From positions 248,001-312,000 of the forward strand of contig NZ_JAKLUA010000006.1 in NCBI RefSeq assembly GCF_022012435.1: a stretch of DNA of 64,000 nucleotides, in the 5' to 3' direction. The notes below the pieces were generated by a model. It did not search any database. It worked only from the letters and a program-made list of their open reading frames with translations, and was not told the origin of the DNA. The translations under genes were made by a program, and so were the position numbers. Positions 1 to 8,027 of this stretch are shown one piece after another. The DNA comes from Bradyrhizobium zhengyangense. GTDB lineage: Bacteria; Pseudomonadota; Alphaproteobacteria; Rhizobiales; Xanthobacteraceae. The stretch's first letter is position 1; every line of letters begins with the position of its first letter.

Positions 1-444
1 CCGAACTGGGACGTGCCGAAGCCGTCGGACATTCCAAAGCCCACCGATCCCAGGCTCGGCATGAACGGCAAATGGACGACGCGGCCCATTGTCGGCCATA
101 TGGGCTCGCTGGGAGCGCGCCGGCTCTGGATGAGCGAGGTGCGCGAGCTGGTTGCTGGCGTGCCGATGACACCATTCGTGCATGTTGCCACGGGCGCTGA
201 TTTCGCGAGCCCCTTTGCCAATGCCGGCGACAAGGGGCTCGGCTACATCAACAGCGACGTCACGATCTATCTGCACCGCCTGCCGGTGACGAACTGGATC
301 GGCTTCGAGGTGGTGAACCACCAGGCGACTGATGGCGTCGCGATCGGCGAATGCTGGCTCTATGACGAGCAAGGCCCGATCGGCACCGCGACGGTCGCTG
401 CACTGGCGCAGCGCAAGCCGATGGCGAAGGTGCCGCCGCCCTAG
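1..444 (+). CDS. Acyl-CoA thioesterase-like protein, 3' part
   Basis: The reading frame is open from the first base and ends with TAG at 442-444, so only the C-terminal 147 residues are present. The visible part resembles the second hotdog half of TesB-like/thioesterase-superfamily proteins, with the segment SDVTIYLHRLP and the closing region GWIGF..EVVN..GVAIGECWLYDEQGPIGTATVAAL typical of enzymes that hydrolyse acyl-CoA to free acid and CoA. No catalytic residue can be assigned because the N-terminal half lies outside the window. The next gene ends at 448 on the other strand, so the two are tail to tail with a 3 bp gap. Family assignment is fair; substrate is unknown. Confidence 0.7.
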   Translation, partial: PNWDVPKPSDIPKPTDPRLGMNGKWTTRPIVGHMGSLGARRLWMSEVRELVAGVPMTPFVHVATGADFASPFANAGDKGLGYINSDVTIYLHRLPVTNWIGFEVVNHQATDGVAIGECWLYDEQGPIGTATVAALAQRKPMAKVPPP

Positions 445-447
445 CCA

Positions 448-915
448 TCATTCCAAATGCCTTTGCATCTCCGGCCGCGCCTTCAGCTCCGCGCCCTGCT
501 TGCCGACGATCTTCGCAATGCGCTCGGGTGCAAACTTCAGATCGACGAAGGCGGGCGCGGTGTTGGCGACCTCGTGATAGCTCACGATCTTGCCGCCCTT
601 CAGCGTCATGATCGCGACGCCCTCGAACATTGCCCGCGCGCCGTTCGCGTCCGGCAGAGTCGATTTGTAGCTGAAAGTGTAGCGCGCATAGAGCGTGGTG
701 CCGTCCGACACGGGGTCGTGCATGTCCCAGCGAAAATCCGTCGCCGTGCGATAGAACCAGTCGTCGATCATCGCCGCGATTTTTTCGCGCCCTGCAAAGG
801 CACCGTAGAACACGTCGTGATAGATGCCGTCTTCGGTGAAGAGGTTAGCGAAGGCATCACCGTTGCGCTGTTCGACGGCGTCGCAGAAGGCGCGCAGCAT
901 GGCGGTGGTGGTCAT
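448..915 (-). CDS. SnoaL-like / NTF2-fold protein
   Basis: The product has 155 residues. Start chosen at ATG 913-915 because a strong ribosome site GGAAGGAG lies just upstream; an in-frame ATG 54 bp further upstream lacks one. The opening MTTTAMLRAFCDAVEQRNGDAF, the following LFTEDGIYHDVFYGAFAGREKI, and the later segment YARYTFSYKST are typical of SnoaL-like polyketide-cyclase/NTF2-fold proteins, small alpha+beta cone folds of about 130-150 residues that bind hydrophobic ligands. Many family members are uncharacterised, and no catalytic set can be assigned here, so the substrate is unknown. It reads in the same direction as the hydrolase gene ending at 988 upstream and could be cotranscribed with it (72 bp gap). 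Confidence 0.65.
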   Translation of the reverse strand: MTTTAMLRAFCDAVEQRNGDAFANLFTEDGIYHDVFYGAFAGREKIAAMIDDWFYRTATDFRWDMHDPVSDGTTLYARYTFSYKSTLPDANGARAMFEGVAIMTLKGGKIVSYHEVANTAPAFVDLKFAPERIAKIVGKQGAELKARPEMQRHLE

Positions 916-987
916 TGGCGATTCTCCTTCCCCATTCTCGGTCATGCCCGGCTTCGCGGGCGATGACACCGAGTGCTGCGCAACACC

Positions 988-1788
988 TCACCCGATCTCC
1001 GCCACCGCGGCAAGAATGCGCGCGATGTCTTGCGGGCGGGACAGGCGGTGATCGCCATCCTGGATCAGGGTCAGCACGACGTCGTCGGCCGGCAGGCGGT
1101 GGGTCAAAGCAAACGCGTGCTGCCACGGCACATCAGGATCCTTCGCCCCCTGCAGGATGCGGACCGGACAGCCGAGATCGATGGCGCTGCCGAGCACGAG
1201 ATGGTTGCGTCCCTCCTCGATCAGCTTGCGCGTGATCGGATAGGGCGTGCCGTCGCCATATTCGGACGGCCTGAGCCAAAAGCCCTTGGTCTCGATTTCC
1301 TGCTTCACCTCGGGCGAGAAATTCTTCCACATCAGTTCCTCGGTGAAGTCGGGCGCCGGTGCGATCAGCACCAGGCCCGCCAGCGAGGCCTTGCCGGAAC
1401 GCTTCTTGATCTCGCGCGCGAGCAGCAGCGCCATCCAGCCGCCCATGGAAGAGCCGATCAGGATTTGCGGGCCGGTGCAGAAGCGCTCGAACACCGCGAC
1501 GCTGTCCTCGAGCCAACTGCCGATGGTTCCATCGGCGAAATCACCGCTGGATTCGCCATGACCGGAATAGTCGAACCTCACGGCGGCGCGGCCATGCTCG
1601 CCGGCCCAGCCGTCCAGCGCCACCGCCTTGCCGCCCTGCATGTCCGACTTGAAGCCGCCGAGCCAGACGACGCCGGGCCCTTGACCAGCCCCTTGGCCGG
1701 CGCGATGGCGAACCGCGATCCGGCGCGCTGAGGGACCCTCGCCAACATCGATGAAGTCGAGCACGGCATCGGGAATTGCTGGGGTCAT
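988..1788 (-). CDS. Alpha/beta hydrolase
   Basis: The product has 266 residues with the canonical alpha/beta-hydrolase layout: strand and oxyanion region VVWLGGFKSDM near residues 40-50, FDYSGHGES at 72-80, nucleophile elbow GSSMGG with Ser114, probable acid Asp in GAKDPDVP, and catalytic His in QDGDHRLS near the C terminus. No signal peptide is seen, so it is cytoplasmic. The arrangement resembles ABHD10/acyl-protein thioesterase-like esterases; substrate unknown. The ATG at 1788 has only a weak upstream purine stretch. The SnoaL-like gene follows in the same direction. The 251 bp to infC on the other side must hold divergent promoters; I could not define one confidently, though GTCCCTTTGGGAC at 1860-1872 is a small dyad. 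Confidence 0.8.
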   Translation of the reverse strand: MTPAIPDAVLDFIDVGEGPSARRIAVRHRAGQGAGQGPGVVWLGGFKSDMQGGKAVALDGWAGEHGRAAVRFDYSGHGESSGDFADGTIGSWLEDSVAVFERFCTGPQILIGSSMGGWMALLLAREIKKRSGKASLAGLVLIAPAPDFTEELMWKNFSPEVKQEIETKGFWLRPSEYGDGTPYPITRKLIEEGRNHLVLGSAIDLGCPVRILQGAKDPDVPWQHAFALTHRLPADDVVLTLIQDGDHRLSRPQDIARILAAVAEIG

Positions 1789-2039
1789 GGAACGTTTACT
1801 CTTGTTGTGAGGTTTGAGGTCCTGAGGCGCATTCCGCGAGGCAACCCTATCTTGGTATTGTCCCTTTGGGACGCTTGCGGAACAGGGGCAAGGTGTCTAT
1901 GTCGTGCACCGTGCCGATGGGCGTGACCAAAATGCCTCGCATTTGAGGGTTTTTCGCTCTCACACGGGCGACTTGCTTGCCGGCAAACGCATCTTCCTGC
2001 AAAATAGGCGCTTCCTTTCACAGCTTTGGAGAACCACCC

Positions 2040-2579
2040 ATTCGCCGTCCCAATAGAGCCCCAGCCCCTGCCGCCAAAGACGGGCCGCGCATCAATGATG
2101 ATATTCGCAATGCGCAGATCCAGCTGATCGATCAGACCGGTGACAACAAAGGCACCGTCGAGACGATGCTTGCCATCAAGATGGCCCAGGAAGCCGGCAT
2201 GGATCTGGTCGAGATCTCGCCAAATGTCAGCCCTCCCGTCTGCAAGATCATGGACTACGGGAAGTATAAGTATTCCGCCCAGAAGAAAGCCGCCGAAGCC
2301 CGCAAACGTCAGAAGACCGTCGAGATCAAGGAGATCAAGCTCCGCCCGATGATCGACGATCACGATTACGACGTGAAGATGCGCGCGATGCTGCGGTTCT
2401 TCGAAGAGGGCGACAAGGTCAAGATCACCCTGCGTTATCGCGGCCGCGAAATGGCGCACCAGGAGATCGGCACCAAGCTGCTGGACAAGATCAAGACCGA
2501 CGTCGCCGAGCTCGCCAAGGTCGAGCAGGACGCCCGGTTCGAAGGCCGTCAGGTTGTCATGGTGCTGGCGCCTCGCTGA
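2040..2579 (+). CDS. infC: Translation initiation factor IF-3 (ATT start)
   Basis: IF-3 binds the 30S subunit, keeps it apart from 50S and checks initiator tRNA-start codon pairing. The protein has N-domain residues [16 protein letters not shown], linker [11 protein letters not shown], and C-domain [39 protein letters not shown]. The homology begins at Ile (ATT 2040-2042), preceded by GGAG at 2028-2031 with 8 nt spacing. Starting there gives 179 residues, the usual length; the only upstream alternative (ATA/other codons further 5') would add unrelated residues. An AUU start is the known device by which IF-3 represses its own synthesis in E. coli. A strong terminator follows at 2606-2640, so infC may be a separate unit from rpmI-rplT. 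Confidence 0.95.
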
Positions 2580-2605
2580 CGCCGGCGCGCAAGAGCCGAA
2601 ATTTC

Positions 2606-2640
2606 AACGGCCCGTCCGGATCTCCGGCGGGCCGTTTTTT
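2606..2640 (+). terminator. Rho-independent terminator of infC
   Basis: Fourteen-base-pair GC-rich stem with one bulged T: left arm from 2606 (AACGGCCCGTCCGGA), two-base loop TC, right arm TCCGGCGGGCCGTT, followed by six T at 2635-2640. It lies 27 bp after the infC stop and touches the stop codon of the converging small secreted-protein gene. Confidence 0.9.
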
Positions 2641-3038
2641 CAGGTTCGCGAAGCCTGCCATGTGCCGCTGCACTGGTCGCCGGAAATGACACCCTTCCAC
2701 GAGCCAGCCCCGGCTGCGCCGCCGAGCCGGCCGCCGCCGCTGGCGTGGGAGGCGCCGACCGACACCTGGACCGCGACGGCGCCGCCGCGATTGACAGTGC
2801 CGGAGACCCGGCCGCCGCCGGCCGACGACACCCGATTGCCTGTGACGGTGAAGGGGACGCTGTAGCCCGAGCTGCAGGCGCCCCGGGTGGTGGCGAAGGT
2901 GACATTCCAGACGCCGTCATAGCCACCGATGCGGGCATCGGCAGCCGACGGAACGGCGGCCGTGGCAAAAGTGGCGAAGAGCACAAGACTGCGCGGACGA
3001 GTGACAACAGACAAAATCGACTGGGAAAAATAGGCCAT
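2640..3038 (-). CDS. Small exported Gly/Ser-rich protein
   Basis: The product has 132 residues. Start chosen at ATG 3038, with GGAGCAGG upstream; a longer frame to 3128 adds a non-signal-like leader. The N terminus has a basic stretch then VLFATFATAAVPSAADA, a likely signal peptide cleaved after ADA near residue 36. The mature part begins IGGYDGVWNVTFATTRGAC and contains two more cysteines and a Gly/Ser/Val-rich beta-type region ending GDQCSGTW. I do not recognise a named family; small secreted proteins with a GxWxV..T..G.C pattern are common in Bradyrhizobium. It converges on infC and shares its terminator region. Function unknown. Confidence 0.65.
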   Translation of the reverse strand: MAYFSQSILSVVTRPRSLVLFATFATAAVPSAADARIGGYDGVWNVTFATTRGACSSGYSVPFTVTGNRVSSAGGGRVSGTVNRGGAVAVQVSVGASHASGGGRLGGAAGAGSWKGVISGDQCSGTWQASRT

Positions 3039-3263
3039 TTTGGTCCTGCTCCGGGCGATGCGGCTAGGAAATGAGAGTATCAATCCCGAATAGTCGGCGG
3101 CCAGGCTGCAACGGTTCATCGTTGCCAATTCGCCCGTTCTCTGTCATAAGCCCGGCCTTCATCGCCCGGCTGATTTAGGGCTGCCGTGGCGGTGTTTCGT
3201 GCGGGTTTCGCGCTTTGTCGCAAAAACCTGAGCACACTCAACGCTCTAACGAGCATTTTTGAC

Positions 3264-3298
3264 GGCCAAGCCGCCTTCGCGGGCGGATTTCCTTGGCC
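3264..3298 (+). promoter_or_regulatory. Leader hairpin before rpmI
   Basis: GGCCAAG (3264-3270) pairs with CTTGGCC (3292-3298) and inner CCGCC (3271-3275) with GGCGG (3282-3286), leaving an asymmetric bulge. It ends four bases before the rpmI ribosome site AGGAG (3302-3306). In other bacteria L20 or related leaders control this operon; such a role here is inference. Confidence 0.45.
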
Positions 3299-3312
3299 AT
3301 TAGGAGAGCCAA

Positions 3313-3513
3313 ATGCCCAAGCTGAAGACCAAATCGGGCGCTAAAAAGCGCTTCAAGGTGACTGCCACCGGCAAAGTGATGTTCGCCCACCGCGGCAAGC
3401 GTCACGGCATGATCAAGCGGACGAAGAAGCAGATCCGTCAGCTTCGCGGCACCAGCGTGCTGTTCAAGACCGACGGCGATAACGTCAAGAAGTACTTCTT
3501 GCCGAACGCCTGA
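3313..3513 (+). CDS. rpmI: 50S ribosomal protein L35
   Basis: The 66-residue very basic protein starts [22 protein letters not shown] and ends with the family-typical [14 protein letters not shown]35 is a small component of the large ribosomal subunit. The ATG at 3313 follows AGGAG at 3302-3306 with 6 nt spacing, an excellent site. It is followed after 90 bp by rplT, the conserved partner in nearly all bacteria. A stem-loop in the leader (3264-3298) may regulate the pair. Confidence 0.97.
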
Positions 3514-3603
3514 TCGCGTCCAAGGACGTCGAAGATCATTGCCATCTCCGCCGCGTCGTTCGCGGCGATCCGAAAACAAAGTCATCTCTGAAGGATTTTT
3601 GTC

Positions 3604-3963
3604 ATGTCTCGCGTCAAACGCGGTGTGACCGCCCACGCCAAGCACAAGAAAGTCTACAAGGCCGCCAAGGGCTTCTATGGCCGCCGCAAGAACACCATCC
3701 GCGCCGCCAAGCCGGCCGTGGAGAAGGCCCAGCAGTACGCCTTCCGTGACCGCAAGCGCAAGAAGCGCACCTTCCGCGCGCTCTGGATCCAGCGCATCAA
3801 TGCTGCGGTTCGTCCGTTCGGTCTGACCTACAGCCGATTTATCGACGGTATGGCCAAGTCCGGGATCACCGTGGACCGCAAGGTACTGTCGGATCTCGCG
3901 ATCAGCGAGCCCGCGGCGTTCCAGGCGATCGCCGAGAAGGCCAAGGCTGCGCTCGCGGCCTGA
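3604..3963 (+). CDS. rplT: 50S ribosomal protein L20
   Basis: The product has 119 residues with the long basic N-terminal extension ([28 protein letters not shown]) and globular C-domain [24 protein letters not shown] typical of L20, an early 50S assembly protein that binds 23S rRNA. AAGGA at 3591-3595 precedes ATG 3604. The rpmI-rplT gap contains a 7 bp hairpin CGCCGCG/CGCGGCG (3549-3567) without a T run, possibly a processing or attenuation element. L20 represses its own operon in E. coli and Bacillus; whether it does so here is not visible. Confidence 0.97.
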
Positions 3964-3974
3964 TAAGGCCTGCG

Positions 3975-4388
3975 CTAGCGGGTCTTCTGGCCCGCAGCCT
4001 TCAGCGCGCGCTCAGAGTAACGCTGGGCGACCTCCGCCCGGCAGAATGCCGTGAACGAGAGATACATGGTGCCGGACTTGTTCCGGTACTTGATGTCGCA
4101 CGCGTGCATCTCGCGCTTGTAGGCCTGTGTCTGCGCGGCACTGAGGCCGGGCTTGAAGTCCGCCTCACACTTCTTTTCGACGGCAGCGCCGAGTTGGACG
4201 TCGCCGCTCGCGGTCAGCTCGCAATCCTTGAAGACCTTCATCGCGCTTTCGCAGCCCTTCTGGCTGCCGATGGTGTCGACGACCTCGTCCAGCGTCATGG
4301 ATGTGTCCATGCAGACCATGGCGCGCGCAGGCGTGGCGGCGACCGACAGAACGACGGCCAAGACGGCCAAAGAGCATTTCGAAAGCAT
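3975..4388 (-). CDS. Small exported cysteine-containing protein
   Basis: The product has 137 residues. Start chosen at ATG 4386-4388 with GAGGAG upstream; a longer frame to 4442 adds a polar leader ahead of the signal peptide. Residues 1-23 (MLSKCSLAVLAVVLSVAATPARA) are a clear Sec signal. The mature chain has about five cysteines (in MVCMD, KGCES, KDCEL, KKCEAD, HACDIKY, AFCRAE), suggesting disulfides in the periplasm. I do not recognise the family. It converges on rplT (11 bp between stops) and its promoter region faces pheS, so it interrupts the usual infC-rpmI-rplT-pheST order. Function unknown. Confidence 0.65.
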   Translation of the reverse strand: MLSKCSLAVLAVVLSVAATPARAMVCMDTSMTLDEVVDTIGSQKGCESAMKVFKDCELTASGDVQLGAAVEKKCEADFKPGLSAAQTQAYKREMHACDIKYRNKSGTMYLSFTAFCRAEVAQRYSERALKAAGQKTR

Positions 4389-4539
4389 CGCAAGGGTCTC
4401 CTCGTATCCTGTCTTGGTGCCGGGTCCCCGCGCGAGGTTCAACCCAGCCGCTCAGAGCACGAAATGACCGGCTTTTTGCTTGACGTTACGCCCTTCGGGC
4501 GGCGACAACCCAGCCGAATTTGGCAGCAAGGATTTGACT

Positions 4540-5622
4540 GTGTCCGACCTCGCAACGCTTGAAACATCCATCCTCGACCAGATCGCCGCCGCCGGCGATG
4601 AAGCCGCGCTCGAAGCGGTGCGCGTCGCAGCCCTCGGCAAGAAGGGCTCGATTTCGGCGCTGCTGGCCACGCTCGGCAAGATGTCGCCCGACGAGCGCAA
4701 GACGCAAGGCGCGGCGATCAACCAGGCCAAGGACAAGGTCACCGAGGCGCTCGCCGCACGGCGCGACGTGCTGAAGTCCGCGGCGCTCGATGCGCGGCTC
4801 GCATCCGAGACCGTCGACGTCACGCAGCCGCTGCGCGATGCTCAGGCTGAGGCCGGCCGCATCCATCCGCTCAGCCAGGTCTGGGACGAGCTGACCACGA
4901 TCTTCGCCGACATGGGTTTCTCGGTCGCCGAAGGTCCAGACATCGAGACCGATGACTACAACTTCACCAAGCTGAATTTCCCGGAAGGCCATCCGGCGCG
5001 CGAGATGCACGACACGTTCTTCTTCCATCCGAAGGAGGACGGCTCACGCATGCTGCTTAGAACCCACACCTCGCCGGTGCAGGTGCGCACGATGCTGAGC
5101 CAGAAGCCGCCGATCCGCGTGATCTGCCCGGGCCGCACGTATCGCATCGATTCGGATGCGACCCACACGCCGCAATTCCACCAGGTCGAAGGCCTCGTCA
5201 TCGACAAGCATTCGCATCTCGGCCACCTCAAATGGATCCTGCACGAGTTCTGCAAGGCGTTCTTCGAGGTCGACCACATCAACATGCGCTTTCGTCCCTC
5301 GTTCTTCCCGTTCACCGAGCCGTCGCTGGAAGTCGACATCCAGTGCCGCCGCGACAAGGGCGAGATCCGCTTCGGCGAGGGCGAGGACTGGCTCGAGATT
5401 CTCGGCTGCGGCATGGTGCATCCGAACGTGCTGCGCGCCTGCGGCATCGATCCCGACGAGTACCAGGGCTTTGCCTGGGGCATGGGCATCGACCGCATCG
5501 CCATGCTGAAATACGGCATCGCCGATCTCCGCCAGCTGTTCGACAGCGACGTCCGCTGGCTGAGCCATTACGGCTTCAAGCCGCTCGAAGTGCCGACACT
5601 CGCGGGAGGGCTGAGCTCGTGA
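4540..5622 (+). CDS. pheS: Phenylalanyl-tRNA synthetase alpha subunit
   Basis: Catalytic subunit of the alpha2-beta2 enzyme that charges tRNA-Phe. The GTG at 4540 is preceded by AAGGA (4528-4532, 7 nt spacing) and gives 360 residues, the normal length; a longer frame from 4480 is not needed. An N-terminal coiled-coil arm (residues about 1-90) is followed by class II motif 2 ([10 protein letters not shown], near residue 215), the phenylalanine pocket ([13 protein letters not shown]) and motif 3 ([18 protein letters not shown]). It overlaps pheT by 4 bp (GTGA), showing translational coupling. A small dyad CGCCCTTCGGGCG at 4489-4501 precedes it; I see no clear attenuator leader peptide. Confidence 0.97.
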
Positions 5623-8027
5623 AATTCACCCTCTCCTGGCTGAAGGATCATCTCGACACCGACGAGTCGCTGGATAAGCTCGCCGACAAGCTCACCATGA
5701 TCGGGCTCGAGGTCGAGAACATCGAGGACAAGGCGAAGGCGCTCAAGCCGTTCACCATCGCGAAGGTGATCTCGGCCGAGCAGCATCCCAATGCCGATCG
5801 CCTACGCGTCTGCATGGTCGACACCGGGGACGGTGGCGCGCCGGTGCAGGTGGTGTGCGGTGCGCCGAATGCGCGCGCCGGGCTTGTCAGCGTGTTCTCA
5901 CCGCCCGGCACCTACATTCCCGGCAAGGACATCACGCTTGGTGTCGGCACGATCCGCGGCGTCGAGAGTCGCGGCATGCTGTGCTCGGCGGCCGAGCTGC
6001 AGATCTCCAACGATCATGACGGCATCATGGAGCTGCCGGCCGACGCGCCTGTCGGCGCTGGTTACGCCGAATGGGCCGCGCTCGGCGATCCCGTGATCGA
6101 GATCAACCTGACGCCGAATCGGCAGGACTGCACCGGCGTGCACGGCATCGCGCGGGATCTCGCGGCTGCCGATATGGGCAAATTCAAGGACCCCGGCATA
6201 AAGCCGATCAAGGGCGAATTCCCTTGTCCCGTGAAGGTCACGGTCGAGGACGCCAATCTATGCCCGGGTTTTGCGCTCCGTCTCGTGCGCGGCGTGAAGA
6301 ACGGGCCGTCGCCGGAATGGCTGCAGAAGCGGCTGACCGCGATCGGTCTGCGCCCGATCAATGCGCTGGTCGACATCACCAACTTCATGACCTACGACCG
6401 CGCGCGCCCGCTGCACGTGTTCGACGCCAAGAAAGTGAAGGGCAACCTCGTCGTGCGGCACGCCCGCGACGGCGAAACGCTGCTCGCGCTCGACGGCCGC
6501 ACCTACAATCTCGATCCCTCGATCTGCGTGATCGCGGACGAGCACGGCGTCGAATCGCTCGCCGGCATCATGGGCGGCGAGGCCTCGGGCTGCGACGAGA
6601 CCACCACTGACGTGCTGATCGAGTCGGCGCTCTGGAACGAGATCAATATCGCTCAGACCGGCCGCAAGCTCGGGATCAACTCCGATGCGCGCTACCGTTT
6701 CGAGCGCGGTGTCGATCCGGCCTTCATGGTGCCCGGGCTCGAGCTTGCCACCAAGCTGGTGATGGAGATGTGCGGCGGCACGCCGTCGGAGAACGTCGTG
6801 GTCGGCAAGACCTTCGGCGATGACCGCATCATCGATTTCCCTGTCACCGAGGTGAAGCGGCTCTCCGGCATCGAGGTGCCGATGCCGGAGATGAAGCGCA
6901 TCCTGACCCATCTCGGCTTCATGATGGCGGGGCCCGGCCCGGTCGTGAAGGTCGCGGTGCCCTCATGGCGCTCCGACGTGCATGGCAAGGCCGATATTGT
7001 CGAGGAAGTCGTCCGCATCTACGGCGTCGACAAGGTGCCCATGACGCCGTTCGAGCGCGGTGAGGACGCGCGCAAATCGGTGCTGACGCCGCTGCAGCTG
7101 CGCACCCGCCGCGCCCGGCGCGCACTGGCGAGCCGCGGCATGACCGAGGCGGTGACGTGGTCGTTCATCACGAAGACTGCGGCACAATTGTTCGGCGGCG
7201 GCCAGCGCGAGCTGGAAGTGGCGAACCCGATCGCCGCTGACCTCTCCGACATGCGGCCGAGCCTGCTGCCGGGTCTGGTCGCGGCCGCACAAGCCAATGC
7301 CGACCGCGGCTATGGCGACGTCGTGCTGTTCGAGGTCGGGCAATTGTTCAGGGGCGATCGCCCGCAGGATCAGTTCATGGCGGCGAGCGGCGTGCGCCGC
7401 GGCCTTGCGTCATCGGAAGGGCTGGGACGGCACTGGTCGGGCTCGGCGCAGGCTGACGTGTTCGACGCCAAGGCCGATGCGCTCGCCGTGCTGGCTGCGG
7501 CCGGCGCGCCGATGCAGGCACTGCAGATCGTCGCCGGCGGTCCCGCCTGGCTGCATCCGGGCCGCTCCGGCACGATCCAGATCGGGCCGCAGAACGTGCT
7601 CGGATATTTCGGCGAGATGCATCCGCGTGCGCTGGAAGCGCTCGGCGCCGACGGCCCGCTCGTGGTGTTCGAGGTGATCCTCGACCGCATCCCGGAAGCC
7701 AAGAAGAAACCGACCCGCGCCAAGCCGCTGATCGAGCTCTCGGCATTCCAGCCCGTGTCGCGCGACTTCGCTTTCATCGTCGACCGCACCGTCAAGGCTG
7801 GCGACATCGTCCGCACCGCGCAAGGCGTCGACAAGAAGCTGATCACCGGCGTGAACGTCTTCGACGTCTACGAGGGCAAGGGCATGGACGACGGCAAGAA
7901 GTCCGTTGGCATCGCGGTGACCATCCAGCCGCGCGAGAAGACGCTGACCGATCAGGAGATCGAAGCCGTTGCCGCGAAGATCGTGGCGGAGGTCACGAAG
8001 AAGACCGGCGGTACGTTGAGGGCGTGA
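5619..8027 (+). CDS. pheT: Phenylalanyl-tRNA synthetase beta subunit
   Basis: The GTG at 5619 overlaps the pheS stop and is preceded by GGGAGGG at 5604-5609. This gives 802 residues, the usual length; the open frame extends upstream through pheS only as a shadow. Order of domains: N-terminal B1, tRNA-binding/OB (EMAP-like) about residues 40-150 ([26 protein letters not shown]), B3/B4 editing region ([21 protein letters not shown] then [24 protein letters not shown]), B5 DNA-binding fold, B6/B7 catalytic-like core ([11 protein letters not shown]), and the C-terminal anticodon-binding FDX-ACB domain ([20 protein letters not shown]). Forms the heterotetramer with PheS. Confidence 0.97.

Follow-up and report, generated by a model that had tools for sequence, protein, structure and literature searches.

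An ATT start codon in infC, held throughout Bradyrhizobium and its near relatives, and a likely feedback by IF-3

Which codon begins infC in Bradyrhizobium zhengyangense, and would that codon let translation initiation factor IF-3 limit its own synthesis? We addressed both questions for the infC locus (Table 1) in the window, by which we mean the whole 64,000-nt stretch of DNA that was analysed. The product is identified as IF-3 by a profile match to TIGR00168 (237.5 bits against a cut-off of 60), and there is a single match in the whole 8.8 Mb genome. The 5' end of the gene reads ...CTTTGGAGAACCACCC ATT CGC CGT CCC..., and the frame is open from there to the stop codon at 2577-2579. An earlier note had proposed this ATT as the start, placed by a GGAG 8 nt upstream, with no ATG, GTG or TTG in a position to give a protein of 179 residues. 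Position and spacing proved exact. The only in-frame canonical codon upstream is TTG 1977, which would yield 200 residues, and the first one downstream is ATG 2166, at codon 43 and within the conserved N-domain; neither is usable for a product of the normal length. The Shine-Dalgarno match in the window is limited to GGAG, a point that we counted against the assignment.

Table 1. Features of the infC locus, in window coordinates
Feature	Positions	Strand	Basis
Putative -35 hexamer TTGCCG	1977..1982	+	Element in 82/91 near relatives; contains the only upstream in-frame canonical start
Putative -10 hexamer CAAAAT	2000..2005	+	Comparison of relatives; weak match to TATAAT
Shine-Dalgarno GGAG, 8 nt 5' of ATT	2028..2031	+	Sequence
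infC CDS, 179 aa + stop, translation initiation factor IF-3	2040..2579	+	TIGR00168 match
infC ATT start codon	2040..2042	+	ATT in 148/148 start regions and 83/83 close full-length relatives
Terminator-like hairpin and T run 3' of infC	2606..2640	+	Fold

In searches with tblastn, IF-3 was matched in 143 of 146 genomes of the genus, all 143 aligning from residue 1 without internal stops, and in 189 of 198 genomes of the family. The DNA of the start codon was read in the retrieved loci rather than in every tblastn match. These 255 loci gave 243 distinct start regions once identical ones had been merged, 148 in a genus/family set and 95 others; L214, whose start is missing, was omitted. Some named loci were assigned to the genus/family set by similarity rather than taxonomy, and one that is counted there, L223 (Labrys), may come from a sister family. 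Starts were called by a Shine-Dalgarno rule devised for this analysis, and on that basis the start is ATT in every one of the 148 distinct genus/family-set regions. The Shine-Dalgarno site in 107 of them is a 4-nt match at a spacing of 8 nt, and the other 41 have matches of 4-6 nt at 7-9 nt. The earlier note had called for infC 5' ends to be compared across Bradyrhizobium; the comparison, which also took in near relatives, thus bore out its proposal.

The 83 close full-length relatives allowed the first codon to be set beside the other isoleucine codons of the same gene. Codon 1 is ATT in all 83, whereas their 1050 internal isoleucine codons comprise 918 ATC (87%), 130 ATT and 2 ATA. Nine alignment columns are isoleucine in every relative, and of these column 1 alone never departs from ATT: ATT predominates at column 59 (60 of 83), column 22 is split, and ATC is the main or sole codon at the others. 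Invariant codons as such are not unusual, since a single codon is used throughout in 12 of 130 conserved columns. We counted this, and the preponderance of ATT at column 59, against the argument; codon 1 is noteworthy because it is held on the rarer isoleucine codon and not because it is invariant.

Gene finders restricted to ATG, GTG and TTG would be drawn to TTG 1977, the sole such codon upstream in frame, and translation from it would give IF-3 a 21-residue extension. We regard this as very improbable. No GGAG-type site precedes TTG 1977 in the window, the peptide between it and ATT varies among relatives and is read in different frames, and 47 of the 148 genus/family-set regions have no ATG, GTG or TTG at all between the upstream stop and ATT. 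Among the 82 near relatives with the element listed in Table 1, only 26 have the TTG in the reading frame of infC, and in 81 a spacer of 17 nt separates it from a -10-like box, so that the spacer is kept and the frame to infC is not. We therefore rejected TTG 1977 as a start codon, reading it instead as part of a -35-like box whose frame to infC is not conserved.

The TTG-N17-CAAAAT arrangement is promoter-like, a putative element recognised by comparison of relatives. Its -10-like box is CAAAAT in 55 of the 82, CAAACT in 12, CACACT in 7 and another variant in 8. The search pattern permitted spacers of 16-19 only and did not permit CAAGAT; of the nine relatives without a pattern match, eight have the same layout with CAAGAT and L067 lacks the element. 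A generic promoter scan of 1780-3400 for TTGACA/TATAAT-like sites found nothing. The RpoD-like consensus of B. japonicum is given as TTG-N(16-18)-TATA, with a usual leader of 20-40 nt (PMC4842269); the infC leader would be about 28 nt.

Other placements of the start were weighed in the same regions. A canonical codon does lie 10-18 codons before the GPR motif in 29 of the 148 genus/family-set regions and 11 of the 95 others, and under a looser start rule GAGG or AGGAG precedes an in-frame TTG in 5 of the 148 and GGAG precedes a GTG in 1; we counted both results against ATT. A stop codon stands immediately 5' of the called ATA, ATC or ATT (hereafter AUH) in 14 of the 243 regions and within three codons of it in 23. 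Downstream, the alternative in the rows inspected is typically an ATG four codons 3' of the AUH, which puts it some 20 nt away from the Shine-Dalgarno site, a distance too great for it to be favoured; at this place the window reads AAT instead of ATG. A shortened IF-3 from ATG 2166 has to recommend it that this is the first in-frame ATG past ATT, but it would drop residues 18-42, a segment that can be aligned to the N-domains of solved IF-3 structures and falls inside the matches of relatives. This loss of conserved N-domain residues led us to reject it, and we give it the least credence of all the readings considered. With the codon fixed, some relatives devoid of any other start, and TTG 1977 falling in a -35-like box, ATT is strongly supported; because of this comparison of relatives we regard ATT 2040 as nearly certain to be the start of infC, and ribosomes presumably use it.

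AUH starts extend well beyond the genus/family set. The 95 other distinct regions are nearly all alphaproteobacterial (they come from 64 of 210 matched genomes of the class, all 64 taken from among the best-scoring, plus named loci), and they include L255 (Thauera) and L256 (Oryzomicrobium), which we take to be betaproteobacterial. AUH was called in 90 of them, ATA and ATC being commonest (64 ATA, 21 ATC and 5 ATT), and 68 of these 90 have no ATG, GTG or TTG from the upstream stop to the called start. The five remaining regions have canonical-looking starts, TTG in L224, L225 and L231 and ATG in L153 and L175; in L224 and L225 the TTG stands two codons 5' of an ATA. All five are possible losses of the AUH start, which suggests that the arrangement is not indispensable and can be lost.

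From this one short gene we made a quick tree of 117 IF-3 proteins, leaving out the start region (four short and two identical rows were dropped from 123). It implies at least 19 start-codon changes, or 2 if AUH is set against ATG/TTG. These counts are rough, and the changes from AUH to a canonical codon may number three or more, because the tree lacks L173-L176 and with them L175, where one of the two ATG starts was called. Since ATA is a single transition from ATG, the rarity of ATG is as expected under selection against a start to which IF-3 is insensitive, and such selection would fit it.

What might such a start codon do? E. coli infC reportedly has an AUU start and is autorepressed by IF-3 (work attributed to Butler 1987 and Sacerdot 1996). 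We think it very probable that infC is translated here from AUU 2040, placed by GGAG, with autorepression of the E. coli type. GGAG would position the ribosome on AUU 2040; IF-3 would destabilise initiation complexes at codons other than AUG, GUG and UUG and, for that reason, would repress infC itself. A surplus of IF-3 would thus repress the infC mRNA, and a shortage would relieve the repression. An E. coli-like loop is the best explanation, and a likely one, because the mechanism is known elsewhere and the IF-3 residues presumed to matter are conserved, Arg147 excepted. In an alignment over residues 16-179, this IF-3 and the IF-3 chain of 8jsg have 89 of 164 aligned residues in common. Of the residues in that chain which we take to be important for start-codon fidelity, the equivalents of Tyr70, Tyr75, Arg99, Arg112, Arg116 and Arg168 are conserved and Arg147 is replaced by Lys, a substitution that we counted against the reading. 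The feedback is also a plausible fit to the pattern of start-codon changes on the tree.

A structured leader that hides the infC start was ruled out: the RNA around it (2008-2100) folds no better than its shuffles (z +1.07), and positions 1-6000 contain no known Rfam leader family, the single sub-threshold match being sR10 (E 0.67). Because the start region is unstructured, the target of repression would be the codon itself and not a structure in the leader.

ATT might instead be kept merely as a weak codon that limits IF-3 output, with no IF-3 feedback in this lineage. We find this improbable given that the gene concerned encodes IF-3 itself, in a form that conserves the presumed fidelity residues except Arg147. 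A weak start would, by itself, also disfavour AUG, and the low output of such codons is on record in S. aureus, where AUU/AUA sites of other genes in minimal medium are described as yielding about 10% of the expression seen with AUG, and one such site up to 30% in rich medium (PMC13009471). Discrimination by IF-3 against these codons, on the other hand, is described as established in both E. coli and Streptomyces (PMC5472188). As for measured IF-3 feedback in an alphaproteobacterium, we recognised none in the open-licence literature among the matches listed.

The feedback reading draws on a known system with which the locus agrees in part. An AUU start, a Shine-Dalgarno site and an IF-3 product are common to infC of E. 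coli and Bradyrhizobium. In E. coli the gene lies in the operon thrS-infC-rpmI-rplT, whereas here it is apparently monocistronic. The hairpin downstream of infC occupies 2606-2636 and its T run 2635-2640, and the segment 2580-2648 folds at -35.2 kcal/mol (z -3.81). A generic terminator scan of 1780-3400 returned five sites (1.8 expected), the infC hairpin not among them. The start of rpmI, at 3313, is 733 nt past the infC stop and is followed by rplT; in the 70 of 91 relatives in which rpmI was found, the infC-rpmI gap measures 321-1881 nt (median 738). On the other side, a divergent alpha/beta hydrolase gene occupies 988-1788 on the minus strand. Because of the hairpin, the 733-nt distance to rpmI and the divergent upstream gene, infC is probably a transcription unit of its own; hairpin and gap alike lead to the prediction that it does not share one with rpmI-rplT.

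Between infC and rpmI lies a 162-aa ORF (2640-3128, minus strand) with a hydrophobic stretch, for which neither Pfam at E 0.001 nor NCBIfam at E 0.01 gave a match.

About 110 nt 5' of ATT is a conserved block, 1920-1956, with a perfect inverted repeat, AAATGC-CTC-GCATTT, at 1930-1944. This is the only such site in the 8.8 Mb genome. With up to four changes allowed, 87 of 147 genus/family-set regions contain the repeat, and its arms and spacer are exact in 53 of these 87. As a pattern with any spacer it is present in 49 of the 60 genus genomes, in some cases away from infC; a reversed control pattern gave no occurrence in the genus genomes. The terminator scan includes 1935-1948. We regard the repeat as a putative operator, or else a hairpin, close to the infC promoter. 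The block was also considered as a coding peptide and rejected: there are about eight similar residues before a stop, but the upstream frame and start codons are not shared.

The same 15-mer is found away from infC in some Bradyrhizobium genomes (L317-L324, near position 2501), the loci being L317, L319, L321, L322 and L324, also L318 and L320, and L323. One type of site coincides with the end of a polysaccharide-export gene, or lies near it, in a neighbourhood that includes methionine sulfoxide reductase and TctC-type genes (L319 alone was tested for domains); another is the end of an SMP-30-like frame adjoining a Lactamase_B gene (domains tested in L320 only); and once, in L323, the 15-mer lies within a long frame. 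The distant copies may mark a small regulon, or they may be repeats of one hairpin.

A broader proposal joins these strands: selection throughout the Alphaproteobacteria against AUG, GUG and UUG on infC, with the AUH codon chosen lineage by lineage because the strength of the IF-3 loop depends on it (Bradyrhizobium and its near relatives being fixed on AUU, most others having AUA), and in Bradyrhizobium a loop acting on a free-standing infC, perhaps with a second control at the upstream palindrome. We put it forward as speculation that is rather unlikely to hold in full.

Non-AUG starts of infC have a long record, and a 2020 preprint by Gvozdjak and Samanta on non-AUG genes (arXiv 2008.10758) may have described their taxonomic distribution already. 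In the published accounts, ATT starts are backed by peptides in Xanthomonas (PMC5559785) and Yersinia (PMC3091656) and stated for B. subtilis (PMC1805508), and PMC5472188 sets out the E. coli autorepression mechanism. Streptomyces infC, with ATC (PMC5472188), and S. aureus infC, with AUA and experimentally mapped ribosome density (PMC13009471), have the AUH start in common with Bradyrhizobium and differ in the codon. A close likeness is Xanthomonas euvesicatoria, a GC-rich proteobacterium with an ATT start and no alternative start codon (PMC5559785); it belongs to a different class, and its start is backed by peptides, whereas the one described here is assigned from sequence. Among the matches listed in the open-licence literature, none was recognised, by title or the start of the abstract, as describing infC with a non-AUG start for any alphaproteobacterium.

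Together, these results make Bradyrhizobium infC a solid new case of a long-known phenomenon rather than a surprise. They document a non-AUG infC start at the DNA level in the genus and its near relatives, and ATA or ATC starts in most of the other loci sampled from the Alphaproteobacteria. The survey adds the extent of AUH infC starts in this class, and the assignment puts right a start that would be misplaced by gene finders confined to ATG, GTG and TTG. If the feedback is true, a self-limiting factor of translation fidelity would have been retained even without the E. coli operon, and the natural AUU, AUA and AUC variants would offer a ready test of how the codon sets the level of IF-3.
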